IMG/VR virus record: IMGVR_UViG_3300048592_000187
Location: 1-27,651 of that record
Reading direction: 5' to 3' (one strand)
Source of the DNA: a virus
Length of the DNA: 27,651 nt
The notes below the pieces were generated by a model. It searched no databases. It was given only the letters and a program-made list of their open reading frames with translations, and was not told the origin of the DNA. Shown here piece after piece: positions 152 to 21,612 of this stretch. Both the position numbers and the translations under genes were made by a program. Every line of letters begins with the position of its first letter. Positions within the stretch are counted from its first letter, which is position 1.

Positions 152-181
152 TTGACATTTTATCGCTATTTGTGATATGCT
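152..181 (+). promoter_or_regulatory. Early promoter with an operator in its spacer
   Basis: -35 TTGACA (152-157) and -10 TATGCT (176-181), 18 bp apart, with an extended -10 TGA just upstream. The spacer holds a degenerate dyad ATCGCTATTTGTGAT (162-176). Transcription should start near 188, which rules out the ATG at 177 as the helicase start. Bases 177-184 and 196-203 form a perfect 8-bp inverted repeat around the ribosome site AAAGGGGG. Only its right half would be in the transcript. Confidence 0.65.
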
Positions 182-206
182 TGCTCTGAAAGGGGGCAAG
201 CATTTT

Positions 207-1904
207 ATGACTATTACGCTGCGACCATATCAAATTGAGGCGCGCGACGCTACGCTTTCTGCGTGGCAGTCTGGCGATTCCAGCGTCATCGGCGTGGCGG
301 CGACAGGGCTTGGCAAAACTGAGATTCTGCTGTCTGTCCTGGCAGCGGAACGGGCAAGCGGCAATCTGTCACGCGCCGTCATTCTGGCGCACCGCAAGGA
401 GCTGATCGAGCAGCCGCGCGACCGCATTGCGCGCAACTGGGCAGATCAATTGCCCGTGCCCGGCGTTGTCATGGGCGGACAGAATGACGCCAGCGCCGAG
501 ATTGTCTGCGCTACCGTGCAGACGCTTTCCAGGGAGCGACGAATGCGAGATGTGCTGCAACACGGCGCCATCTCGCATTTGATTATCGATGAGGCGCACC
601 ACGCCGCCGCCGATGGGTATGGCGCGGTGGTCGAGGCGCTGCGCTTCGCTAATCCGGCGCTGCGTATCCTCGGCGTGACGGCCACGCCCAACCGCGCCGA
701 CGATGCCGCCCTCGAAATCTTCGACCGCCAGGTCTTCAAGTACACGATCAAAGATGCAATTCACACGTACAAGGCGCTTGTCCCCTTCGTGGCGATGGGC
801 GTCCGTTTGCCGGTGGACATCTCCGGTGTGCGCATCCAGCAGGGTGATTACAGCGCCGGCGAACTGGGTAGCGTCATGGACGTGCGCAACGCCAACGAGG
901 TGATCATCGAGACCTGGAAAGAGCACGCCGCCGACCGCTTGACAATGGCGTTCACGGCGACGGTCGAGCACGCCAAGCATCTTGCAGAAGCCTTCCAGGA
1001 AGCCGGGGTAGCGGCGGAATGGGCGTGCGCGGAGACGCCAAAGGACGAGCGCAACGCCATCATCGAGCGCTTCAAGGCCGGGCGAACTGCGGTGTTGGTC
1101 AATGTCGCCCTGTGGACGGAAGGCCTTGACGTGCCGAATATCTCCTGCGTGATGATGGTGCGCCCGACGCAGTCCAGTACAGTCTACATTCAGGCTGTCG
1201 GGCGCGGGTTGCGCACCTATCCCGGCAAAGAGAATTGCCTGATCTTGGACTTCGTGCCGACTTCCAACAAGACGCTGCTGACCGGCAATGCCTTACTCGA
1301 GGGCAAGCCGAAGGCGCAAAAAGCCGCCGAAGCGAAGGCCATGCAGCAGGGCACCATCCTGGAGGTCATCGGCATCGACGCGCAGGGCAACGGGATCGAT
1401 GCTGACCCGGATACGGTTGTCATGCAGGCGCTCGACCTGCTGTCCGTGCAGCCGATGGCATGGACTTTTGACGGCAAGGTGGCGACGGCGGGCGGCGGCG
1501 CAAACATGACGATGGTTATCGTCGCACCGCAGACCGAACGCATCGCACGCGCCACCGAACTGCGCGCCAATGGCCATTGGCGCGCTGAGTGGAATGGTGA
1601 CTTCGAGCGGGTGTCTCAGTACGCCGTCTACGTGGTCAACGGCGCGGTCAACTACCTGGGCGGCGCGCCGGAATGGGACGGCGCTGTCGTAGTCGCTCAG
1701 GATTACGTCGAAAAGCACGGCGACCCGACGCTGGCGCAACGTGCAAAGAGATGGCGATTCGAGGCGTCAACCGCCGGGCAACGGGGCATGATGCGGCGGC
1801 TTGGCTTGCCCTACAAGCAGGGCATGACCAAAGGCCAGTGCAGTCAGGCGATTGCTCACAAACTCGCAGAGATGGAATTGAAAAAGGTTGGCATCCTGAA
1901 ATGA
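207..1904 (+). CDS. SF2 DEAD/DEAH-box helicase
   Basis: A 565-residue superfamily 2 ATP-dependent helicase, expected to unwind or remodel DNA during phage replication or recombination. Visible motifs in order: PYQIEAR Q-type motif near the N-terminus, Walker A ATGLGKT at about 35, DEAH box in LIIDEAHH at about 130, VTATP motif III at about 158, and motif VI QAVGRGLR at about 330. About 200 residues follow the helicase core and end in a basic helical segment. The start at 207 was chosen over 177 because AAAGGGGG lies 11 bases upstream and 177 overlaps the -10. It overlaps the next gene by ATGA, so the two are probably translationally coupled. The exact subfamily is not determined. Confidence 0.92.
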   Translation: MTITLRPYQIEARDATLSAWQSGDSSVIGVAATGLGKTEILLSVLAAERASGNLSRAVILAHRKELIEQPRDRIARNWADQLPVPGVVMGGQNDASAEIVCATVQTLSRERRMRDVLQHGAISHLIIDEAHHAAADGYGAVVEALRFANPALRILGVTATPNRADDAALEIFDRQVFKYTIKDAIHTYKALVPFVAMGVRLPVDISGVRIQQGDYSAGELGSVMDVRNANEVIIETWKEHAADRLTMAFTATVEHAKHLAEAFQEAGVAAEWACAETPKDERNAIIERFKAGRTAVLVNVALWTEGLDVPNISCVMMVRPTQSSTVYIQAVGRGLRTYPGKENCLILDFVPTSNKTLLTGNALLEGKPKAQKAAEAKAMQQGTILEVIGIDAQGNGIDADPDTVVMQALDLLSVQPMAWTFDGKVATAGGGANMTMVIVAPQTERIARATELRANGHWRAEWNGDFERVSQYAVYVVNGAVNYLGGAPEWDGAVVVAQDYVEKHGDPTLAQRAKRWRFEASTAGQRGMMRRLGLPYKQGMTKGQCSQAIAHKLAEMELKKVGILK

Positions 1905-3085
1905 GTGATAGCACGGCGGAACTTGACAGCCTGTTGGCAGAGGCGACGGATTCGGTCGCGGAGGCGGAACGCGCCAAAGCGTCCGGCAATACCTGGAACG
2001 CTTGGAAGTGGCGCGGCTATGCGGACGCATTCCAGCCGCGCGACCCGCTCTATTACCTGGTTGATGGCCTGCTTGCTGCGCCGTCGCTCAATATCTGGTA
2101 CGGGCCGCCCGGCTCCATGAAATCGATGATTCTTGCAGACCTGGCAGTCTGCGTGACGCTGGGTAAGCCGTTCCTATCCGCCAACCCGAACGGCAAGCCG
2201 GGGCGAACTTTCATCACGCGACAGTCGCACGTCGCTTGGATTGACATGGACAACGGACGCCGGCGCACCGACGTGCGCTTTGACGCCCTGGGCAAGGCGC
2301 ACGGCGCTGACGCCAACAACCGCTACCTGCACTACGTCTCCATCCCCAACCCGACTTTCAACGCCGCCGACGATAGGCTGATGTCCGACTTCGAGCAGGG
2401 TATTCGCAATAACGATGTCAAGCTGTTGATCGTGGACAACCTGGGCTTGTCGATCGGGGAAACCGACGAAAACAAGGCAGAGATGGCAGTCGTGATGCGC
2501 AACTTCAAGACCCTCGCAGAAAACTGCGAGACGTGCATTGTGATCATCCACCATCCGACAAAGGGCGGGGTGCAAGAGGGCGCACGGCTTGGCGACAAGC
2601 TGCGCGGCCACTCAACTATCGAGGCGGCGCTGGACTCTGCGATGTACATCGACCGGCTGGAAGGGCGCGAGGCTATCAGCGTCATTCCAACGAAGGTGCG
2701 CGAGTATCGCATCGAAGCCTTCGGCGCAGACTTTACTTACGAGCATCACGAGGGCACATACGACCTGAAAACGGCGGCGTTCTATTCCAAGCCGCACGAT
2801 TCGCCCGATGAGGTGCGCCGTCGCTTGCTGCAAGACGTGATCCTGACCGTGCTCTTTGAGCAACGCGCGGGAAGTCAGGTGTCACGCAGCGACCTGTATG
2901 AGAAGGTGGCCGGGATTGTCGAGGGTTCCCTGGGCAAAAAGACGCCAAGCCGCAATGAGTACCGGGGACAGTTGACGGTGCTGGCGGAACTGGGATTCGT
3001 CGCCGAGGGGAAGGAAAAAGACTACATGTATTCACTATCGGACAAAGGCTGGATAGAAGCTCAAAACAGAAAGGTGAGAGGCTAA
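1901..3085 (+). CDS. RepA/RecA-like AAA ATPase (replicative helicase or loader type)
   Basis: A 394-residue protein of the RepA/AAA_25 type of RecA-fold ATPases found in phage and plasmid replication modules. Walker A is GPPGSMKS at about residue 68. Walker B is LLIVDNLG at about 180. A conserved VIIHHPTKGG segment at about 220 is typical of these hexameric ATPases. The last 100 residues resemble a winged-helix region (SDLYEKVAGIVEG, LTVLAELGFV). The longer open frame from 1673 is a shadow of the helicase, because ATG 1901 overlaps the helicase stop. With the helicase before it and the primase at 4782, it suggests a self-encoded replisome. Confidence 0.88.
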   Translation: MSDSTAELDSLLAEATDSVAEAERAKASGNTWNAWKWRGYADAFQPRDPLYYLVDGLLAAPSLNIWYGPPGSMKSMILADLAVCVTLGKPFLSANPNGKPGRTFITRQSHVAWIDMDNGRRRTDVRFDALGKAHGADANNRYLHYVSIPNPTFNAADDRLMSDFEQGIRNNDVKLLIVDNLGLSIGETDENKAEMAVVMRNFKTLAENCETCIVIIHHPTKGGVQEGARLGDKLRGHSTIEAALDSAMYIDRLEGREAISVIPTKVREYRIEAFGADFTYEHHEGTYDLKTAAFYSKPHDSPDEVRRRLLQDVILTVLFEQRAGSQVSRSDLYEKVAGIVEGSLGKKTPSRNEYRGQLTVLAELGFVAEGKEKDYMYSLSDKGWIEAQNRKVRG

Positions 3086-3087
3086 CA

Positions 3088-3537
3088 ATGGCTGAGAAGA
3101 TTTTCGACCGTGCAGACCTGCTGAAGTTCTTCGAGGAATCCAACGAAGTCGGGGAGGTGCGCGCCATCTTGCCGCCGCAATCGCTCTACGACGATCAAGA
3201 CGGCAAGCTGGAAGTGTTCCCTGTCGAGGCGGAAACGACGTGCCTGTGGTGCGAGAAATACCGCTTTGCCGTCGTGGTGCGCAAGGTGATCATGCCATCA
3301 CAGGCGCGCAAACTCTTCCCACAGGATCACATCCTGCGCACGCGTCAGCAGGCTGAAGTCTGCTACGGTGCTTCGTCGGCGGAGATGGTGCGCTGGGCGG
3401 TTGACCAGGCGAACACCTGGCAAGACCTTGTGAAGTGGTCAATCCCGTCGCAGACGTTCGACTTGCGCCCCTCGCAGACCGACGACAACCGGCCAACCGG
3501 CGTCACGGTTGATGACATCCTGGCAGGTGACGAATGA
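3088..3537 (+). CDS. Hypothetical phage protein, replication operon
   Basis: 149 residues, not recognised. It starts 2 bases after the ATPase stop, behind a GTGAGAGG ribosome site, and codon use matches its neighbours. A CLWC pair at about residue 51 could bind metal, but no second cysteine pair is seen; one further cysteine lies near residue 92. The C-terminus is acidic and polar (TVDDILAGDE). It overlaps the next small gene by ATGA, so it belongs to the same transcript as the helicase and ATPase and may assist them. Confidence 0.75.
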   Translation: MAEKIFDRADLLKFFEESNEVGEVRAILPPQSLYDDQDGKLEVFPVEAETTCLWCEKYRFAVVVRKVIMPSQARKLFPQDHILRTRQQAEVCYGASSAEMVRWAVDQANTWQDLVKWSIPSQTFDLRPSQTDDNRPTGVTVDDILAGDE

Positions 3538-3868: not shown

Positions 3869-3870
3869 AG

Positions 3871-3897
3871 AAAGCCCGGTCGCTCTGACCGGGCTTT
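3871..3897. terminator. Bidirectional hairpin terminator
   Basis: Perfect 11-bp stem (AAAGCCCGGTC / GACCGGGCTTT) with loop GCTCT, lying between two convergent genes. A- and T-rich flanks on each side would give a short U-tract in both directions. Confidence 0.85.
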
Positions 3898-3901
3898 CCT
3901 G

Positions 3902-4228
3902 TTACGCCAACCCCGTGCGCTTCGCTTCATCCACAATGAGCCAGCGAATCGCGCCAGCCATGCTCAACTGCCAGCGCTTCGCTATCGCCTTGAAGTCGGC
4001 GCGCTCGCTGCTATCCACGTTGACCGAAATGACTTGCGTGCCGGTATACGCCGACTCGCGCCGCCCCTCCTTGACCCCACGCTCAATCGATTCGCGCATC
4101 AACGTGCGTATCGTCGCCGTCCTGGACATCCCACGTTGGGCGGCGATGCCGTCAAGCGTCTTTGCGATCTCGGGCGTCACTGACACGCCGATGCACCCGC
4201 TACGAAAAACACCTCTCACTGCTGGCAT
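3902..4228 (-). CDS. Tandem ribbon-helix-helix DNA-binding regulator
   Basis: 108 residues with two ribbon-helix-helix (CopG/Arc-like) units. The first is at about 12-50: strand IGVSVTP, then helices around EIAKTLDGIAAQRG and SRTATIRTLMRESIER. The second is at about 65-105: strand VISVNVDSS, helices around ADFKAIAKRWQ and SMAGAIRWLIVDEAKR. The family binds DNA with a beta-ribbon and usually works as a dimer; here one chain could supply both units. A good ribosome site (AAAGGGG, 6-base spacing) and its own TTGACA/TACAAT promoter precede it. It is the best candidate regulator in the window, possibly for the shared dyads, though that link is not shown. Confidence 0.82.
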   Translation of the reverse strand: MPAVRGVFRSGCIGVSVTPEIAKTLDGIAAQRGMSRTATIRTLMRESIERGVKEGRRESAYTGTQVISVNVDSSERADFKAIAKRWQLSMAGAIRWLIVDEAKRTGLA

Positions 4229-4271: not shown

Positions 4272-4300
4272 ATTGTAATCGATTCTATAGCAGTTGTCAA
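4272..4300 (-). promoter_or_regulatory. Promoter of the ribbon-helix-helix gene
   Basis: On the minus strand, TTGACA (4300-4295) and TACAAT (4277-4272) are separated by exactly 17 bp, close to the sigma-70 consensus. The spacer holds the self-complementary AATCGATT. A related AGAATCGGTAGC lies downstream on the opposite strand at 4243-4254, so self-regulation by the encoded protein is possible (inference). Confidence 0.75.
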
Positions 4301-4330: not shown

Positions 4331-4453
4331 GCAATCGATGCTCAATTGATGCTCAAATGAAGCTCTAACATGGAAAACGTTATGTATACGTTCCAGAGTA
4401 AAATATCGATACATGTTAGAGCTTCATTTGAGCATCGTTTAGTTATCGATTGC
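4331..4453. repeat. Large interrupted palindrome (25-bp + 9-bp arms)
   Basis: Arms 4348-4372 and 4412-4436 are perfect 25-bp complements. After equal 8-base unpaired stretches, outer arms 4331-4339 and 4445-4453 (GCAATCGAT / ATCGATTGC) pair over 9 bp. The 39-base centre can fold further (GGAA..ACGT / ACGTTCC). The left arm is preceded by a direct copy of GATGCTCAA. No convincing gene lies here. It could be a replication origin, a cruciform protein-binding site or a structured RNA. Confidence 0.85.
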
Positions 4454-4547
4454 GGAACAATAGACCTATTGCTTTTTGGGTGTTGCCTGACAGGAGGTGC
4501 AGAAGGGGCGCTCGTATCTCTGAGACCCTCTTTTTTCCCTGCTAGGA

Positions 4548-4672
4548 TTGGGGTCAACGGCAGCCGGGTTCGCCCTACACTACGCCCCCCTATAATAATA
4601 ATATCTAAAGATATTATTATAGGGGGGCTATGTGTAGGGTGAAAACTCCCATCTTGCCGCCGTTGACCCCAA
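4548..4672. repeat. Second nested palindrome with AT-rich core
   Basis: Outer arms 4548-4561 and 4659-4672 pair over 14 bp (TTGGGGTCAACGGC and its complement). Inner arms 4573-4580 and 4632-4639 pair over 8 bp (CCCTACAC / GTGTAGGG). A core stem of G/C run plus TATAATAAT closes at about 4584-4628, with one extra AAT on the left. A looser AGGATT / AATCCT pair lies outside. The core is very AT-rich for this genome. It lies about 75 bp upstream of the primase promoter. Confidence 0.85.
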
Positions 4673-4746: not shown

Positions 4747-4775
4747 TTGACAATTATCGCTCTGTGTGATAATCT
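4747..4775 (+). promoter_or_regulatory. Primase promoter with operator in its spacer
   Basis: -35 TTGACA (4747-4752), 17-bp spacer, extended -10 TGA followed by TAATCT (4770-4775). The dyad ATCGCTCTGTGTGAT (4756-4770) fills the spacer. GATGCTTGACA is shared with the promoter at 147-157. Transcription would start within a few bases of the primase ATG, giving almost no leader. Confidence 0.65.
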
Positions 4776-4781
4776 CATTTC

Positions 4782-6128
4782 ATGGCGATAGGGCAATACC
4801 AAAGCGTGAAGCGTAAATCCTGGCAGGCTGACCGGCGCAGAGACGACGGCAACGGCTATCTCATCGCGCAAGCGAAGGAATCCGACATCGTAGAGGTGGC
4901 GCTGTCCTTTGGCGTCAAGCTCGAATCGGAATCAGGCAACCGGGAATTTTCCGGCGCTTGCCTACGCTGCGGCGGAACAGACTGCCTGCACGTCAGCCGT
5001 GCAACGAACGGCTGGTTCTGCCGCAAGTGCAACGGACTTGAGCGTCACGGCTGGAAGGATGCAATCGAGTTCGTCACCTACTACGGGCGGGTGGACTTCC
5101 GCACCGCCGTTGAACGCCTGACAGGTCGCCAGATGGAAGGAAAATCGCCCGTGCAGAAAAACATCACAGCGCCCGCAAGCGTAGAATCGTCGCTATCGCC
5201 CGTAGAGGGGTCTAAAATCGATGATAGCGATAAATTCGACCCAACATACTGGGTTCCACGCTACGAACGTTCTGTGGCGCTTTTAGCGGATTCTGGCACG
5301 GTCGATCGGTGGGAGGATGGCCGCATAGTCCGAGATGCTGGCAGGGTAGGGATTGGCGGCGAGGATGGCCGGGAATACTTGAAGATGCGCGGCTTCGAGC
5401 GCAAGACCTGGGAGCGGTTCGGCTTCGGCTTTGACCCGGCGGTCGCGGTGCCGGGCACAGACGGCCAGCAGCGCGCGCCGGCCATCGTCATGCCCTGGTT
5501 CGGCGGCGGCCAGCTTCGTGCGCTGCGTTACCGGTTCCTCAGTGCGCAGCAGCGACCGACCGGCAAGACGGTAAAGCAAACCGGGCGCGGCTCACCGAAG
5601 GGGCTGTTCTTCGGCGGGCTGGGGCTGGAAGGCTTCCAGGCATTCCAGACCGACAAGCCGACCGAACGATTGCGCTGCCTGTTTGTCTGCGAGGGCGAGA
5701 TGAACGCGATGAGCATCTGGCAAGCTGCGCACCCGGCGCGCGTCGATGTGGTGAGCATCGGCTCGCAGGATTCCAAGTTGACCGCGCCCATGCTCGACTT
5801 CGTGGCGCGGTACGGCGACGTGATTGCTTGGCTTGACCAGCCTGACTGCTCTGCCAACGTCGTGTCAGCGATTCGGGAGCGTGTACCGCACGTGCTTGGC
5901 ATTGCGTCGCCAAAGGACAACGACGCTAACGACTGGCTCAAGCTGGGCAAGCTGCAATACATCATCGCGTGGTTGCGCCTGGAGAGAGCGGCGGGCGGCG
6001 ACGTGGACGCAATCCAACGCATCATCTACGACTATCTGGACGCGGTAGACGCCGGGGAGATGACGCTGACCGGCGAAACGCTGGAAATCCTGCGCAAGTT
6101 CGGCGCAAAAATCGGTGTAGGCATTTGA
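4782..6128 (+). CDS. Primase-like protein: zinc finger plus TOPRIM
   Basis: 448 residues. A CHC2-like zinc ribbon near residues 60-85 (CLRC ... FCRKC) resembles that of DnaG-type primases. A TOPRIM region at about 305-370 shows LFVCEGEMNAMSIWQ with its catalytic glutamate, then VIAWLDQPD for the metal-binding acidic pair. The family makes RNA primers for DNA synthesis. Between them is a region like the primase core (EYLKMRGF, RFGFGFDPA, GLFFGG). No helicase domain follows; that role may be filled by the ATPase at 1901. No strong ribosome site precedes the ATG and the promoter sits immediately upstream, so translation may be leaderless. Confidence 0.88.
   Translation: MAIGQYQSVKRKSWQADRRRDDGNGYLIAQAKESDIVEVALSFGVKLESESGNREFSGACLRCGGTDCLHVSRATNGWFCRKCNGLERHGWKDAIEFVTYYGRVDFRTAVERLTGRQMEGKSPVQKNITAPASVESSLSPVEGSKIDDSDKFDPTYWVPRYERSVALLADSGTVDRWEDGRIVRDAGRVGIGGEDGREYLKMRGFERKTWERFGFGFDPAVAVPGTDGQQRAPAIVMPWFGGGQLRALRYRFLSAQQRPTGKTVKQTGRGSPKGLFFGGLGLEGFQAFQTDKPTERLRCLFVCEGEMNAMSIWQAAHPARVDVVSIGSQDSKLTAPMLDFVARYGDVIAWLDQPDCSANVVSAIRERVPHVLGIASPKDNDANDWLKLGKLQYIIAWLRLERAAGGDVDAIQRIIYDYLDAVDAGEMTLTGETLEILRKFGAKIGVGI
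5217..5231. promoter_or_regulatory. Operator-like dyad inside the primase gene
   Basis: ATCGATGATAGCGAT matches the shared dyad with one change in the left half. It is followed by AAATT, as in the promoter at 11211. No -35 box is seen at the right distance. It could be a secondary or decoy site, or chance. Confidence 0.3.
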
Positions 6129-6140
6129 GAATGATTCTCA
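6126..6140. promoter_or_regulatory. 7-1-7 palindrome resembling a Fur box
   Basis: TGAGAATGATTCTCA is a perfect 7-1-7 inverted repeat. It overlaps the primase stop codon and lies 23 bp before the next gene. It differs from the textbook Fur core TGATAATNATTATCA at one symmetric pair. Regulation by a host metal repressor is possible but unproven. Confidence 0.4.
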
Positions 6141-6162
6141 TTTGGGGCAGAGGGGATTGACT

Positions 6163-6435
6163 ATGGCAGACAAGACACTTGTCGAAATCGAAACGCACTT
6201 GAACATGAGCGCCGTCAACCGGGACGCCTGGGAGATGGCGACCGATGACGACGTGATGAAGCGGCGCATGGAGCGGATGGGCATTGCACCGACTCGCAAG
6301 CAGGGCGACGTGTGCTTCTACCAGCTGACAAGCGCAAACATCGTAATTCGCAAGGGCAAGCGCGCAATGAGCGAAACCCAACGGCTACAGGCAGCGGAAC
6401 GCATGAGGAATATGCACAGGCAGGGTAAGACCTAA
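6163..6435 (+). CDS. Hypothetical phage protein
   Basis: 90 residues, not recognised. The start at 6163 is set by AGAGGGG about 7 bases upstream; the frame extension to 6142 lacks a site. The protein is rich in charged residues and methionine and ends with a basic helix (ETQRLQAAERMRNMHRQGK), so it may bind nucleic acid. It follows the primase by 34 bp, across the Fur-like palindrome. Confidence 0.65.
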   Translation: MADKTLVEIETHLNMSAVNRDAWEMATDDDVMKRRMERMGIAPTRKQGDVCFYQLTSANIVIRKGKRAMSETQRLQAAERMRNMHRQGKT

Positions 6436-6617
6436 AACGCATTCGACGTGCCAAACTCTAAGCAGGCTATTGATCGGAACGGCAAGAAACGCATTGTAGG
6501 AAAGGGGAAAAGATTTGGAAATCAATCTCTTATCGCTGTCGGGCAGGTTGACGCCTGCGACGGGGTGCAAGTCCCCGACCGATGCGTTGCCGCGAGTCAA
6601 GGCAAGTCGAGGTATGT
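6436..6617 (+). other. Non-coding stretch with two small hairpins
   Basis: No frame here has natural codon use. Hairpins GCAGG/CCTGC (6543-6558) and CGGGG-TGCAAGT-CCCCG (6561-6577) are adjacent. The second resembles a tRNA T-arm, but no matching acceptor strand or anticodon arm is found. It may be part of a structured leader or RNA leading into the repeat array at 6618. Confidence 0.45.
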
Positions 6618-6702
6618 CATGGTTTGGCATGGCAGGCGTGGCGTGGCCAGGCGTGGCAGGGCGTGGCACGGCGCGGCCTGGCTCGGCATGGCAAGGCATG
6701 GG
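6618..6702 (+). repeat. Degenerate 5-bp repeat array (NNGGC), copy 1
   Basis: About 16 units of a pentanucleotide with invariant GGC and two variable bases (TGGCA, TGGCG, AGGCG, CGGCG and similar), with occasional one-base phase slips. A 5-bp period shifts reading frame each unit, so the array is not organised as coding DNA. It ends about 47 bp before the next gene and recurs at 7921. Confidence 0.8.
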
Positions 6703-6748
6703 AAGTATCAACATCAATCTTCAATCAGTGAAAGGGAAAGGTTAGGAC

Positions 6749-7342
6749 ATGGCTACGAAGAAAAGTGCAGATGCGGTTATCGACATCCCAGAGCTTCAGA
6801 TCAAGACGGCGATGATTACGTTGCGCGGAACGAACCCGTTGATCGTGCATCGCTTCTCTGAGAAGGCGCGCAAGGAGATGCTCGACAAGCAGATGGGCGC
6901 GGCCAAACAGAAGAAGGCGTTCAAGAATCCTGAGCAAGACTACTTCGATTCGCTCTACCTGTTGCCCGATGGTACGCCCGGCTTTCCGGCGGTGGCGTTC
7001 AAGGCGGCGGCTGTCAACGCCGCCAACGATGCGGGTATCCAGAAGGTACTGGCGCGGCGTGCATTCCACATCACGGGCGGGGAGCTTGTGCCGATTCGTG
7101 GGGAGCATCGAATGCGCGAGGACATGGTGCGCATTGCGATGGGCACGGCGGACGTTCGCCATCGTGCGGAGTTCCCGGAATGGGAAGTCACCGTCCCCGT
7201 GACGTACAACGCCAGCATCATCAGCCTAGAGCAACTGGTCAACTTGTTCAACATCGCTGGCTTTGGTGTCGGTGTTGGCGAGTGGCGACCTGAGCGCAAT
7301 GGCATCAACGGCACGTGGTTGGTTAAGGAGGTGATTGGATGA
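6749..7342 (+). CDS. Conserved-looking phage protein of unknown function
   Basis: 197 residues. The N-terminal part (residues 19-45) reads IKTAMITLRGTNPLIVHRFS and runs into a lysine-rich helix (SEKARKEMLDKQMGAAKQKK). Later come PDGTPGFPAVAFKAAAVNAAN and a C-terminal GFGVGVGEWRPERNG. I recall this arrangement from uncharacterised proteins beside phage recombination genes, but cannot name a family, and any role in single-strand DNA handling is a guess. GAAAGGTTAGG precedes the start. It overlaps the next gene by ATGA behind AAGGAGG, so the two are coupled and likely act together. Confidence 0.8.
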   Translation: MATKKSADAVIDIPELQIKTAMITLRGTNPLIVHRFSEKARKEMLDKQMGAAKQKKAFKNPEQDYFDSLYLLPDGTPGFPAVAFKAAAVNAANDAGIQKVLARRAFHITGGELVPIRGEHRMREDMVRIAMGTADVRHRAEFPEWEVTVPVTYNASIISLEQLVNLFNIAGFGVGVGEWRPERNGINGTWLVKEVIG

Positions 7343-7920
7343 TCAAGTTATCAGGTAGAACGTCTAGCTACGCTTGGCGTTTCGGAATGTCGGTCAAGGC
7401 GGATGTGGCTGGGATGGAACTGGAAAAGCTGCAAGAGGAGCACGGTAAGTTGACGCCGGCGATTGTGGTCAACGCGGCGAGGACTGAGGACAACCCGCTA
7501 CACCCGCTTTTTGACTGGCAGGACAAGACAGCGGCGGAAGCATACCGCCATCAGCAGGCGGCGTACATCTTGCGCAATCTGCAAATCAACTACATCCGCA
7601 AAGACAGCGAAACCGACGAACCGCAGATGCGGCGGATGCGCGTCTACCTGAACGTCAAGGAGAAGTCGGTTGATGGCGGCGACGATGACGGCGACGAACT
7701 CGAAGACGGCGACGAATTGCCAGCGCCGAAGCGGGTCTACCTGTCGTCGGTGTCGGTGTTTCAAGACCCGCACTATCGCGCATCGATGCTCGGCCAAGCC
7801 AAGCGTGAACTGGAAACGTGGCGCAACCGCTATGCCGCATTTCAGGAGTTCGACAGCGTGATCCGTGAGATTGACGCTGTGATGAAGACGCTTGTCACCG
7901 AAGTCAAGGCGGCGGCGTAA
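7339..7920 (+). CDS. Conserved-looking phage protein, partner of the 6749 gene
   Basis: 193 residues. GKLTPAIVVNAAR and then NPLHPLFDWQDKTAAEAYRHQQAAYILRNL (about 37-84) form a pattern I associate with uncharacterised phage proteins. An acidic linker (about 112-126, GGDDDGDELEDGDE) separates this from a helical C-terminal half (LGQAKRELETWRNRY). The linker suggests two folded units and possibly mimicry of nucleic acid charge. Start behind AAGGAGG. The gene ends directly at the second pentanucleotide array. Function unknown. Confidence 0.8.
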   Translation: MIKLSGRTSSYAWRFGMSVKADVAGMELEKLQEEHGKLTPAIVVNAARTEDNPLHPLFDWQDKTAAEAYRHQQAAYILRNLQINYIRKDSETDEPQMRRMRVYLNVKEKSVDGGDDDGDELEDGDELPAPKRVYLSSVSVFQDPHYRASMLGQAKRELETWRNRYAAFQEFDSVIREIDAVMKTLVTEVKAAA

Positions 7921-8116
7921 CACGGCAGGCATGGCGAGGCGCGGCATGGCCGGGCGCGGCATGGCGCGGCCTGGTGAGGCAAGGCATGGCAGGCGAGGTT
8001 TGGCAAGGCGTGGCAGGGCAAGGCGTGGCAGGGCCGGGCGAGTCGGGGCATGGCAGGCAAGGCATGGCAAGGCTCGGCGGGGCGCGGCTCGGCAAGGCAA
8101 GGCAAGGCAAGGCAAG
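7921..8116 (+). repeat. Degenerate 5-bp repeat array (NNGGC), copy 2
   Basis: About 37 units with core GGC every 5 bp (ATGGC, GAGGC, GCGGC, AAGGC and similar), with a few 4-base slips. It closes in a run of nearly perfect GGCAA units (8092-8116). It begins right at the stop of the preceding gene and ends about 60 bp before the zinc-finger gene. The long open frames over it on both strands (alternating Met-Ala-Arg-His-Gly or Pro-Cys-Leu-Ala) are by-products of the repeat. Confidence 0.88.
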
Positions 8117-8174
8117 GTGTAACCGACGGGCAGGGGGTGAAGGCTCTCTGCCCAACTCTTTAGGAGGGGAGCGC

Positions 8175-8999
8175 ATGAAAGTCTGCAAGAACTGCGGGGA
8201 AGCGAAACACAAGGGGCACGGACTGTGTGGCAAGTGCTACGAGTATCAGCGCAAGCACGGCAAGCCGCGCCCGTTGGAAACGAAGCGGGGCGGGAAGCGG
8301 CGCGGCGACTATACCGGCGACACGTGCAAGAATTGCGGAGAGAGCGGCAGGTTGCGCCTGGGCTTGTGCGACAACTGCTATCACTATGCGCGCCGGAACG
8401 ATGGCGCCATGCGACCGCTTGACCGTGCGGTTCTGGCCACGCGACGCAAGCATACGCAATGTAAGAACTGCGGATCGCCAAAACACAAGGGGCACGGCCT
8501 GTGCGGTGCGTGTCTCGATTATTTGCGAGACCACGGAGTGATGCGACCGCCGGAGGGTGTGCGCAATTCACCGCACACGCCGCCGCGCGTCTGTGCGCGG
8601 TGCAAACAGAACATGACTCAGTACGGCAAACTGTGCGACGCATGTAGCAACTACCTGTACCGGACAGGTAAGCCGCGCCCGCGTCAACTGTGGGCGGAAC
8701 ACTGCACGAACTGCGATGTCCCGCTCGGAGACTTTCGCCCGCGCAGCGGCTTGTGCATCCAGTGCAGGCGTTATCAGTATCGATATGGCAAGCCGCGCCC
8801 GGCTCACCTGTGGGGCAAAGGTGCGCACGGTTGGTGCGACTGCGGCCAGCCGGCAGATCACACCATCGAAGTGCGGATTCACAACCACGTTGACACGATC
8901 CCCGTCTGTGAATCCTGCTACGCTGAGGAAATGCGACAACGGGCGTGGTACGGCGACAATGCCGTGCGGAAAAACGCTGCATTGCAGTGCAAACGATGA
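8175..8999 (+). CDS. Tandem four-cysteine zinc-finger repeat protein
   Basis: 274 residues made of at least five repeats of CxNCG...GLCxxCYxYxRxxGKPRP. Cysteine quartets start near residues 4, 51, 96, 140 and 177, and a sixth divergent unit is near 220-247 (WCDCG ... VCESC). The spacing fits a zinc ribbon or treble-clef knuckle like those attached to phage HNH endonucleases, but no HNH catalytic residues are visible. Arginine- and lysine-rich arms point to nucleic-acid binding. The strong AGGAGGGG site 5 bases upstream decides this start; the longer frame from 7974 is repeat DNA. A role as a DNA- or RNA-binding regulator is inference. Confidence 0.8.
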   Translation: MKVCKNCGEAKHKGHGLCGKCYEYQRKHGKPRPLETKRGGKRRGDYTGDTCKNCGESGRLRLGLCDNCYHYARRNDGAMRPLDRAVLATRRKHTQCKNCGSPKHKGHGLCGACLDYLRDHGVMRPPEGVRNSPHTPPRVCARCKQNMTQYGKLCDACSNYLYRTGKPRPRQLWAEHCTNCDVPLGDFRPRSGLCIQCRRYQYRYGKPRPAHLWGKGAHGWCDCGQPADHTIEVRIHNHVDTIPVCESCYAEEMRQRAWYGDNAVRKNAALQCKR

Positions 9000-9114: not shown

Positions 9115-9549
9115 GAGGCTATCGTTGCAATTGAAAATGCGTTGATGCGAATCGACCTTCTGTCGTGGTTTGACCTGCTGCGTGGCGTTGCAAGGCACGG
9201 TCGTTTGCATCGCTTCGAGACGATTGACACGCCGATGCTGCATGGCGAGTCTGCAATGCGGCGCTACGGCATTCACTGCTACGGGCGCGGCGTGGAAGTG
9301 ACGCTGCGTGAAGACGAAGACGGACGCAAGCGGCGCTCCTACCGGCGCTGGTTTTACATCAACGCCAAACAAGCAAACTTCGCAGAGTACATCCTCGTTC
9401 GGCACGGCGTGCAGCCGGCTAACCCGTTGAACGCGAACAACTGGAAGGCGGCGGGGCGTGGCCGGTTCCGCGCCTGGGACGCAAAGCGGTCGCTGCGCCC
9501 AACCACCATCAACGAAGTGATCTCGAATCTCTTTGGGGGCGGGCGGTGA
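9109..9549 (+). CDS. Hypothetical phage protein
   Basis: 146 residues. AAAGGGG 6 bases upstream selects ATG 9109 rather than the TTG at 9067. It begins with an acidic helix (MQEAIVAIENALMRIDLL) and continues with a basic, aromatic-rich body (YRRWFYINAKQANFAEYILV) ending in KRSLRPTTINEVISNLFGGGR. No family is recognised. Its stop overlaps the GTG start of the FtsK-like gene (GTGA), so the two should be co-translated. Confidence 0.7.
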   Translation: MQEAIVAIENALMRIDLLSWFDLLRGVARHGRLHRFETIDTPMLHGESAMRRYGIHCYGRGVEVTLREDEDGRKRRSYRRWFYINAKQANFAEYILVRHGVQPANPLNANNWKAAGRGRFRAWDAKRSLRPTTINEVISNLFGGGR

Positions 9550-11192
9550 AATGGTTTAGCCTGTCCCTCTTCGGCTTCCTCTCCCTGCTGATTGTCGGCT
9601 TTGCGTACACGCGCCCGGAGCGGGTCAACGCTGTCGCAGACAACACTGGCGCTTTCTTCGATGCGCTGGGCGCTACGCTCATCCTGTTGATGCAAATCGG
9701 CGTCGGCGTCGGCGTGGTCATGGCCGTCATCGGCGCAACGTGGTTGGGCGCACGTGCGTTCAACTCCTGGCAGGATGGCAAAGACCGGCGGCGTCGCATG
9801 GTTGACGGCGCTTTCCCGATGGTAGAGTACCGGCTGCCCGGCGGTGCGAAGGGCTTTTGGAATCCCAACGCTTCGCTTGATGAGTTCGCCGTGATGGGCA
9901 AGCAGGGGTTCATGTCCTTCTCGAATCCTGAGTTCGGCCCGGATCGGCGTCTGACTGCGAAGCTGGCGCACGAACAGGTCAACGCGTTCCGCGCCGTGTT
10001 CCCTGGCGACAATGCCCGCACGGACGAATACGGCTACATGTCGCAGATGCCCAAAGGTGGCGGGTCTGGCCGGCTCAAGCAGTTGATGGACAAGCAGCGC
10101 CCCGTCATCGCAGAGACGCCAGACGGCGTCATTCTGGAAGGTGAGTTGAATCCGCGCTTGACGACGGGCGAGGCGGCGCTGCACATGTCGCGTCCTGACA
10201 AGTGGATTTTGGGGCAAGAGCCTGTCACCAACGGGCACGCCGTCTTTCGCCCTGTCACCGACGTACACGCCGCTGTCGTCGGCGCGACCGGCTCCGGCAA
10301 GACCAAGAGCGTAGGCTACCTGATGGCGCTGAACGCCGTGCGTAGCGGTGGGCGGTTGGTTATCTTGGACGCCGACAACGGCGTAGACTGGCGACGCTTT
10401 GCCAGTCATGCGGAGTGGCACGAAACCGACGCCGGGGTCTTTGAGGATCAGCTGTCGGCGGTCATGGCGGACAAGCTGGAACGCGACCGGGTGTTGCAGG
10501 CGCACAACCTGGACGAGATCGGCGCTGACCCGGCAGTGCTCAGGGACTACCCGCGCACCTTCGTCTTTATCGAGGAATACGGCTCCCTGCTCGCGTCGCT
10601 GCGTGGCAGTGGGGCGGCGCGTGCGCACCGCGTGGACAACATGCTCGATGAACTGATGCGCAAGGCGCGCAAGTGCGGTATCCACGTTGTGCTCTTTGAC
10701 CAGTATCCCGACAAATGGACGGATCAGACGCTGGTCAACGCCAAGACCAAGTACGTCTTCCAGATTGACGGCGGCAAGGGCGCGAAGGTCAGTGCTCACA
10801 ATGCCGGACTGCTTGACCTGGGCGAGTTCATCCTGCGCGGCACGAAGTATAACTCATTCGACATGGGCAAGGAGTACGCCGCCCTGCTGACCGCCATTCC
10901 AGCGACGGCGCACCCGGCGTTGATTGACGGCGCGCCAAAACCTGCTGCGCAACCCGTGCCCACCGTTGTCGAGGATGGCGTCCCGGAGTGGGAAGCATCC
11001 TACACAGGCGCAATGCCTGACCCCAAAGACGCGCCCAAGCGTGACGTGATCTACGCATGGCGCGACCGCAACCCCACAGGCTCACAGGCAGACTTCCGGC
11101 AATGGCTATCCTCACAGCATGGCATGGAGTATGCGCGCGGCTACGTGTCCGACTGCTTCAAGGAGTGGGATGCTCTGCAACAGGGGGATTGA
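9546..11192 (+). CDS. Membrane-anchored FtsK/SpoIIIE-like ATPase
   Basis: 548 residues from a GTG overlapping the previous stop. Two hydrophobic spans near residues 3-20 and 42-65 anchor it in the membrane. A linker follows, then a motor domain with Walker A GATGSGKTKS at about 248 and Walker B TFVFIEEYG at about 342. DADNGVDWRR and VLFDQYPDKWTDQTLVNAKTKYVFQID resemble FtsK/HerA-type DNA translocases. The C-terminus has a DNA-binding-like tail (AWRDRNPTGSQADFRQWL). The family pumps double-stranded DNA using ATP. In a phage it might act in plasmid-like maintenance or in chromosome or concatemer movement; which is not clear. Confidence 0.85.
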   Translation: MKWFSLSLFGFLSLLIVGFAYTRPERVNAVADNTGAFFDALGATLILLMQIGVGVGVVMAVIGATWLGARAFNSWQDGKDRRRRMVDGAFPMVEYRLPGGAKGFWNPNASLDEFAVMGKQGFMSFSNPEFGPDRRLTAKLAHEQVNAFRAVFPGDNARTDEYGYMSQMPKGGGSGRLKQLMDKQRPVIAETPDGVILEGELNPRLTTGEAALHMSRPDKWILGQEPVTNGHAVFRPVTDVHAAVVGATGSGKTKSVGYLMALNAVRSGGRLVILDADNGVDWRRFASHAEWHETDAGVFEDQLSAVMADKLERDRVLQAHNLDEIGADPAVLRDYPRTFVFIEEYGSLLASLRGSGAARAHRVDNMLDELMRKARKCGIHVVLFDQYPDKWTDQTLVNAKTKYVFQIDGGKGAKVSAHNAGLLDLGEFILRGTKYNSFDMGKEYAALLTAIPATAHPALIDGAPKPAAQPVPTVVEDGVPEWEASYTGAMPDPKDAPKRDVIYAWRDRNPTGSQADFRQWLSSQHGMEYARGYVSDCFKEWDALQQGD

Positions 11193-21308: not shown

Positions 21309-21316
21309 AATGTCAA
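21288..21316 (-). promoter_or_regulatory. Possible promoter for the small membrane genes
   Basis: Minus strand TTGACA (21316-21311), 17-bp spacer, TACGTC (21293-21288). The -35 is perfect but the -10 is poor. It sits over the stop codon of the glycine-repeat gene. Confidence 0.35.
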
Positions 21317-21612
21317 CCGTAACTGTAACCGTCACCGTCACCGGCACCTGAACCTGAACCTGAACCGTAACCGTAACCGTCACCGTCACCGTAACCTGAA
21401 CCGTCACCGTCACCGTAACCTGAACCGTCACCGTAACCGTCACCGTCACCGGCACCTGAACCGTAACCGTCACCGTAACCGTCACCGTAACCTGAACCGT
21501 CACCGTCACCGTCACCGTAACCTGAACCGTCACCGTCACCGTAACCTGAACCGTCACCGTAACCGGTACCTGAACCGTAACCGGAACCGCAACCGGAAGA
21601 AATGCTATCCAT
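21313..21612 (-). CDS. Glycine-X dipeptide repeat protein
   Basis: 99 residues. After MDSISSGCGSG almost the whole chain alternates glycine with Tyr, Asp, Ser, Thr or Ala (GYGDGSGYGDGDG), ending GYSYG and a TGA. The start at 21612 overlaps the DUF6948-like gene's end by 8 bases behind GAGGGAAAG, as usual in this region. The repeat unit is 6 bp, so copy changes never break the frame. A start, a stop and frame coherence favour a real protein over plain satellite DNA. Low-complexity Gly/Tyr/Asp chains can be sticky or metal-binding, but the function is unknown. Confidence 0.5.
   Translation of the reverse strand: MDSISSGCGSGYGSGTGYGDGSGYGDGDGSGYGDGDGDGSGYGDGYGDGYGSGAGDGDGYGDGSGYGDGDGSGYGDGDGYGYGSGSGSGAGDGDGYSYG
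21317..21600. repeat. Hexanucleotide minisatellite
   Basis: About 47 units of CCGTAA, CCGTCA, CCTGAA or CCGGCA (plus strand), each two codons on the minus strand. All six frames are open or nearly open as a result. The array is expected to vary in copy number. Confidence 0.9.

Follow-up and report, generated by a model that had tools for sequence, protein, structure and literature searches.

Few phage origins are known outside the model systems, and only a handful of cases support stem-loop origins of the pRN1 type. The small transcriptional repressor of the pRN1 module is of the CopG type, and the oriV of RSF1010 combines iterons with two primase-binding hairpins, ssiA and ssiB. Replication of pRN1 needs a 100-nt stem-loop whose structure is conserved although its sequence is not, and a mutation in the stem is repaired by restoring symmetry, which brings function back (PMC4234260). 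The module that holds this stem-loop also encodes a repressor and a primase-helicase, and Bordetella phage BIP-1 has a pRN1-like stem-loop structure (PMC4234260). The F relaxosome holds three TraY molecules, each a ribbon-helix-helix (RHH) dimer in one chain, and TraY copies bind as a train in direct and inverted orientation (PMC12117103). AvtR of Acidianus filamentous virus 6, an archaeal virus, occupies about 100 nt of the DNA that separates two divergent viral promoters and acts as a repressor of its own gene (PMC5569661).

The DNA analyzed here (the window) is the 27,651-nt virus record IMGVR_UViG_3300048592_000187, positions 1 to 27,651, probably a fragment of a larger genome; judged by its encoded proteins, the phage is tailed. 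From the left end the genes encode an SF2 helicase, a RecA-like AAA_25 helicase, two small proteins and a leftward CopG-like regulator. A 553-bp gap, which contains both stem-loops described below, separates the regulator gene from that of a TOPRIM primase, and genes for an FtsK/HerA-like translocase, terminase, portal, head morphogenesis protein, protease and capsid follow to the right (Table 1). The helicase-primase set flanking the gap is the only such set seen in the window. The AAA_25 domain match of the RecA-like helicase is strong; its sole PDB match, to RSF1010 RepA, is weak (E 0.0086). An earlier note had placed a regulator on one side of a gene-free region and a primase on the other, and this picture holds: the window ORFs that fall in the gap, 90 and 111 aa long, have no counterpart in the relative described below, where the longest ORF wholly within the gap is 30 aa, and a gene in the gap was rejected on these grounds. 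The GC-rich hairpin between convergent genes, outside the paired element, is a probable ordinary bidirectional terminator.

By analogy, the pRN1 origin is the nearest well-tested parallel to stem-loop 1. Both systems have a stem-loop of about 100 nt in which structure is kept over sequence, an adjoining primase/helicase gene and a small repressor in the module. The phage has two structures, with stem 1 built of 11-bp iterons, whereas pRN1 has one, and the phage stem-loops lie upstream of a separate TOPRIM primase, whereas that of pRN1 lies downstream of a fused prim-pol/SF3 helicase. The archaeo-eukaryotic primase and SF3 helicase of the pRN1 type are thus replaced here by a TOPRIM primase and a separate AAA_25 helicase. 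RSF1010 is a second parallel to the gap, again by analogy, with iterons and two hairpins near genes for a RecA-fold helicase (hexameric in RSF1010) and a primase. The phage hairpins are far longer, however, with the iterons within the stem, and the primase is TOPRIM/phage DnaG-like rather than RepB'-like; no relative of RSF1010 RepC was found in the phage. Because the primase type differs from both, membership in neither the pRN1 nor the RSF1010 family can be claimed, and we therefore say that the gap may work like a stem-loop origin.

Table 1. Positions of the gap features and neighboring genes in the window.
Feature	Position	Strand	Basis or detail
SF2 DNA helicase	177-1904	+	Family/domain match
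RecA-like replicative helicase (AAA_25), weakly like RSF1010 RepA	1898-3085	+	
12-bp GC-rich hairpin between convergent genes	3870-3898		Conserved in the relative
Tandem ribbon-helix-helix protein, 108 aa, CopG-like, TraY-like predicted fold	3902-4228	-	Pfam RHH_1; PHROG CopG-like repressor
Promoter-like site of RHH gene, TTGACA-17-TACAAT	4272-4300	-	11/12 consensus positions
Stem-loop 1 (nested palindrome)	4331-4453		Inverted-repeat analysis, folding, conserved in the relative (3011-3133)
Three 11-bp iterons, left arm: AATCGATGCTC, AATTGATGCTC, AAATGAAGCTC	4333-4365	+	Lag-11 identity
Loop of stem-loop 1	4373-4411		Conserved core TTATGTnTACnTnCCAGAGTAAAA at 4380-4403
Three 11-bp iterons, right arm, inverted: AAATGAAGCTC, AAACGATGCTC, AATCGATAACT	4419-4451	-	Lag-11 identity
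Stem-loop 2 (nested palindrome)	4548-4672		Inverted-repeat analysis, folding, conserved in the relative
Promoter-like site of primase gene, TTGACA-17-TAATCT	4747-4775	+	TTGACA at 4747-4752
DNA primase, N-terminal Cys/His cluster and TOPRIM	4782-6128	+	Pfam Toprim_2 weak; PHROG DNA primase families

Two long stem-loops and their counterparts in a relative

Stem-loop 1 has perfect 25-bp arms (4348-4372 and 4412-4436) around a 39-nt loop. Its 9-bp outer arms (4331-4339 and 4445-4453) are set off by an internal loop of matched 8-nt stretches (4340-4347 and 4437-4444), which is largely unpaired, with 2 of the 8 positions able to pair. These coordinates bear out the first of two nested palindromes reported in the earlier note, including its arms of 25 and 9 bp and its matched 8-base gaps. 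Stem-loop 2 has a 14-bp outer stem (4548-4561/4659-4672), a second stem of 12 positions with one mismatch (4569-4580/4632-4643) and a 17-bp inner stem (4584-4600/4612-4628). Its AT-rich core (4591-4621) can adopt an alternative register of 12 bp (4595-4606/4609-4620) across a 2-nt gap. For this second palindrome the 14-bp stem, the core stem and the AT-rich center stand as first described, and the stem given as 8 bp becomes the mismatched one of 12 positions. Single-strand folding energies lie 9.9 sd (stem-loop 1) and 11.3 sd (stem-loop 2) below those of dinucleotide shuffles. Among perfect inverted repeats spaced up to 150 nt apart, these structures hold the window's top three by length, with arms of 25, 17 and 14 bp; the 14-bp arm taken alone is borderline, because the longest arm in 200 Markov versions of the window also reached 14 (mean 11.1).

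Three familiar kinds of element were rejected for this region: a known structured RNA (no Rfam match at gathering score), an intrinsic terminator (no terminator-like site, with GC-rich stem and T run, over the palindromes) and a MITE/REP repeat (a single copy without matches beyond the relative, rather than many copies).

Relatives were sought in viral contigs with the primase (alone and as an alignment), the helicase, the terminase, the RHH protein and two DNA patterns. The sole relative found to cover the gap is IMG/VR 3300009430_000109 (L004/L006; 12.2 kb), with amino acid identities to the window of 88% for the primase, 94% for the terminase and 68% for the RHH repressor. Viral contigs and 84,980 genomes together gave just this relative and a 4-kb terminase fragment (L007), and the absence of more is weak evidence because the alignment-based scans used two short peptide patterns each. 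Plasmid sequences yielded no relative of the primase. No long palindrome turned up in the stretches fetched around six loci with distant phage relatives of the helicase, primase or terminase genes (longest arms 11-13), which counts against the origin reading proposed below.

Both stem-loops sit at the orthologous place in the relative, and they fold as strongly there (z -10.8 and -9.9). Although the arms of stem-loop 1 differ by substitution at 32 of 84 sites, 38 of the 42 column pairs defined by stem 1 of the window are Watson-Crick in the relative (36 of 42 in the window itself); independent substitution would be expected to retain 16.7, and the maximum in 20000 trials was 29. Nine pairs have changed on both sides yet are compensated, against 1.7 expected. 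The relative has perfect arms of 37 bp in this structure. The window's internal loop is paired there, and the outer stem contains two G-T pairs. Identity is 60-64% in the arms compared with 77% in the loop and 84% in the loop core (4380-4404), and TTATGTnTACnTnCCAGAGTAAAA is retained in the loop of the relative. In stem-loop 2, the interior is 98% identical, the outer arms hold two compensated pairs, and a one-base deletion in a C-run of one arm is matched in the corresponding G-run of the other. Noncoding DNA of the gap outside the stem-loops is just 54-82% identical.

The relative thus retains both hairpins in place despite the much changed sequence of stem-loop 1, which argues that the paired structures are maintained. 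The earlier note had looked to relatives for compensating changes and held that relatives lacking the palindromes would speak against it; the relative has both palindromes, and the retained pairs, the compensated pairs and the matched deletion are changes of the kind it anticipated. Because one relative only is known, the compensations may trace to few events, and in part they may reflect template-switch correction.

Iterons in stem-loop 1 and the adjacent regulator

Both arms of stem-loop 1 consist of 11-bp iterons with the consensus AAnnGAnnnTC, arrayed in inverted orientation to each other. Lag-11 identity is 83% in the left arm, as high as in none of 5000 Markov sequences, and 65% in the right arm (p 0.0016, or 0.013 over lags 7-16); the arms of the relative give 0.65 and 0.67. 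Across the four arms of the two genomes, p ranges from <0.0002 to 0.005, and up to 0.02 for any lag from 7 to 16. The ranking by an iteron profile holds partly by construction, because the best window matches are five of the six units used for the profile. In the relative, each iteron is the exact partner of the iteron of the same rank in the opposite arm and the iterons within an arm differ; in the window, exact partner identity between arms holds for the innermost iteron alone. The arm-to-arm identity of units in the relative therefore indicates that pairing, or arm-to-arm copying, has been kept beyond the needs of binding sites.

The tandem RHH protein is a candidate binder of the iterons. 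Its structural model (mean pLDDT 76) reads E11-17 H19-32 H36-50 E65-71 H73-85 H90-105, a predicted succession of two beta-alpha-alpha units in one chain, as in a tandem-RHH fold. The model matches chains of the F relaxosome with Z 12.0 over 93 residues at 11% identity, and single-chain Arc with Z 9.2. We read the F chains as TraY on two grounds: the relaxosome is described as holding three TraY molecules, each of them an RHH dimer within one chain, and the matching chains remain in the TraM-less structure (PMC12117103). AvtR matches with Z 7.5 (20% identity in the structural alignment), below the Z of 8 under which many unrelated folds fall in VIA-align; the clear rows are TraY and single-chain Arc alone. 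With TraY at the F-plasmid oriT the regulator would thus share its tandem RHH fold, but the phage has no relaxase that we found and no known nic site. With AvtR it would share a one-chain tandem RHH and an array between divergent promoters, but at the AvtR sites the inverted repeats are imperfect and long conserved hairpins are lacking (PMC5569661). The iterons in the arms and the adjacent TraY-like repressor are new beyond the earlier note.

The promoter-like sites flanking the gap recur in the relative, as TTGACA-17-TACTAT at the same place for the RHH gene and as TTGACA-17-TAAACT, with TG in front, for the primase gene. The impression that the primase has its own promoter is thereby strengthened.

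Candidate roles of the gap

We propose, tentatively and by analogy, that the gap may be the replication-initiation region of the phage, with stem-loop 1 acting like the pRN1 stem-loop origin, the best of the readings compared and one we consider quite possible but short of probable. Under negative supercoiling or strand opening, each strand of stem-loop 1 would fold in the cell into a long hairpin that exposes the conserved single-stranded loop. At this loop the helicase and primase of the phage, whose genes flank the gap, would load and lay the first primer, and replication would start here. Stem-loop 2 would be a further structure of this kind and may act for the other strand or in the opening step. 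On duplex DNA, copies of the tandem RHH protein would line up along the iterons of stem-loop 1 and could thereby control hairpin extrusion, its own gene, or both. We infer origin function from structures that are upheld in the relative, the iterons, the predicted RHH fold and the neighboring genes; the stems kept despite substitution, the matched indel of stem-loop 2, the higher conservation of the loop core than of the arms and the replication-gene setting all speak for it, as do the pRN1 precedent and the weak, sole PDB match of the helicase, to RSF1010 RepA. The TOPRIM type of the primase, which is not the archaeo-eukaryotic type of pRN1, is a point against the likeness. GC skew, to which the earlier note had looked as a sign of the origin, makes no turn at the palindromes and instead follows the coding strand (+0.06 to +0.11 in rightward genes, -0.05 to -0.21 in leftward genes). 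The + strand of the window has no DnaA box (TTWTNCACA). A pair of phages with two giant compensated hairpins beside a primase gene offers a compact, testable candidate, and one that ties a TraY-like repressor to the stem.

The main rival is an extended operator, in which binding of the tandem RHH protein at the iterons would extend along the gap and repress both the RHH gene itself and the divergent primase operon without any hairpin, the palindrome being a mere symmetric layout of binding sites. The helical-turn period of the iterons, the predicted TraY/AvtR-like fold and the divergent promoter-like sites on both sides of the gap suit such an operator, and AvtR, an autorepressor that protects about 100 nt in the interval separating two viral promoters, sets a precedent (PMC5569661). 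The lower conservation of the RHH protein than of the primase and terminase is likewise expected if it changes together with its sites, and a purely regulatory role would agree equally well with the RHH gene and the two promoters. Protein binding alone does not need the exact arm-to-arm identity of iterons over 37 bp in the relative, however; stem-loop 2 is conserved though free of iterons, and the array occupies the stretch about 30-150 bp upstream of the RHH -35 box, with the primase -35 box about 300 bp away. On balance we judge the extended operator somewhat unlikely, and it is compatible with the origin reading, the two not being mutually exclusive. It is tempting to speculate on a two-state origin, although we regard it as unlikely: the hairpin stem would be an inverted array of 11-bp sites for the TraY-like RHH protein, and the DNA would take one of two states, a duplex coated by the repressor or an extruded hairpin onto which the TOPRIM primase is loaded. 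If this were true, repressor and stem would change together between related phages with pairing kept, which would allow related replicons to stay apart.

The compensated pairs, the conserved loop and the conserved internal loops would also suit RNA, in which the two G-T pairs in the outer stem of the relative are allowed if the + strand is transcribed. One or two long-stem non-coding RNAs, such as RNase III substrates or RNAs that regulate primase expression, nonetheless seem improbable, as both flanking genes have promoters directed away from the structures, no terminator follows them, and the Rfam matches, all below the gathering score, are to generic long-hairpin models, mostly of microRNA precursors. 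Template switching is reported to homogenize palindrome arms and to mimic compensatory change (PMC8794818, PMC3820800). Were such quasipalindrome correction the main force keeping the arms alike, with pairing itself under little selection, it would predict the perfect arms with unlike iterons within one arm seen in the relative; we think this quite improbable, since both palindromes stand at orthologous places in a gap that is otherwise much diverged, the interior of stem-loop 2 is nearly unchanged and the loop core of stem-loop 1 is kept. Long palindromes are also unstable, and without selection these would be lost. A centromere-like partition site in a plasmid-state phage, bound by the RHH protein as parC is by ParR, is very improbable: an RHH protein and arrays of short (11-bp) iterons next to its promoter would suit a ParMRC-type site, but no ParM/ParA/TubZ-type motor gene was seen among the scanned proteins of the window, itself a fragment. 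The nested terminal-inverted-repeat appearance, above all of stem-loop 2, recalls a palindromic mobile element of MITE or REP-like kind inserted in the gap. We disfavor this and find it scarcely credible, as there is a single copy in the window, the tested pieces and region are unmatched in viral contigs (bar the relative), phages, plasmids and the 84,980 genomes, the relative has the structures at the same place, and no target duplication was seen.

Other features of the window and its relative

The relative has an extra gene (2050-2532), absent from the window, that separates the RHH gene from the small conserved ORF, and an inverted repeat of 15-19 bp lies in this region at 2054-2120. The FtsK/HerA-like translocase gene, upstream of the terminase genes, occupies 9546-11192 in the window and 6024-7664 in the relative. 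A protein encoded at 7974-8999 of the window is built of zinc-ribbon modules in repeated copies (CxNCG...GLCxxCYxY...RP; Pfam double zinc ribbon), and a shorter protein with such modules is encoded at 4778-5479 of the relative. Low-complexity arrays at 6614-6701 and 7924-8117, with units ATGGC and GGCATGGC-like, fall in a stretch (6137-8816) that has no DNA-level alignment with the relative, where it measures about 540 bp. Farther right, at 21315-21598, a tandem array of about 47 copies of a hexamer (AACCGT and variants) has a GC skew of -0.37 and leaves repetitive ORFs open on both strands.
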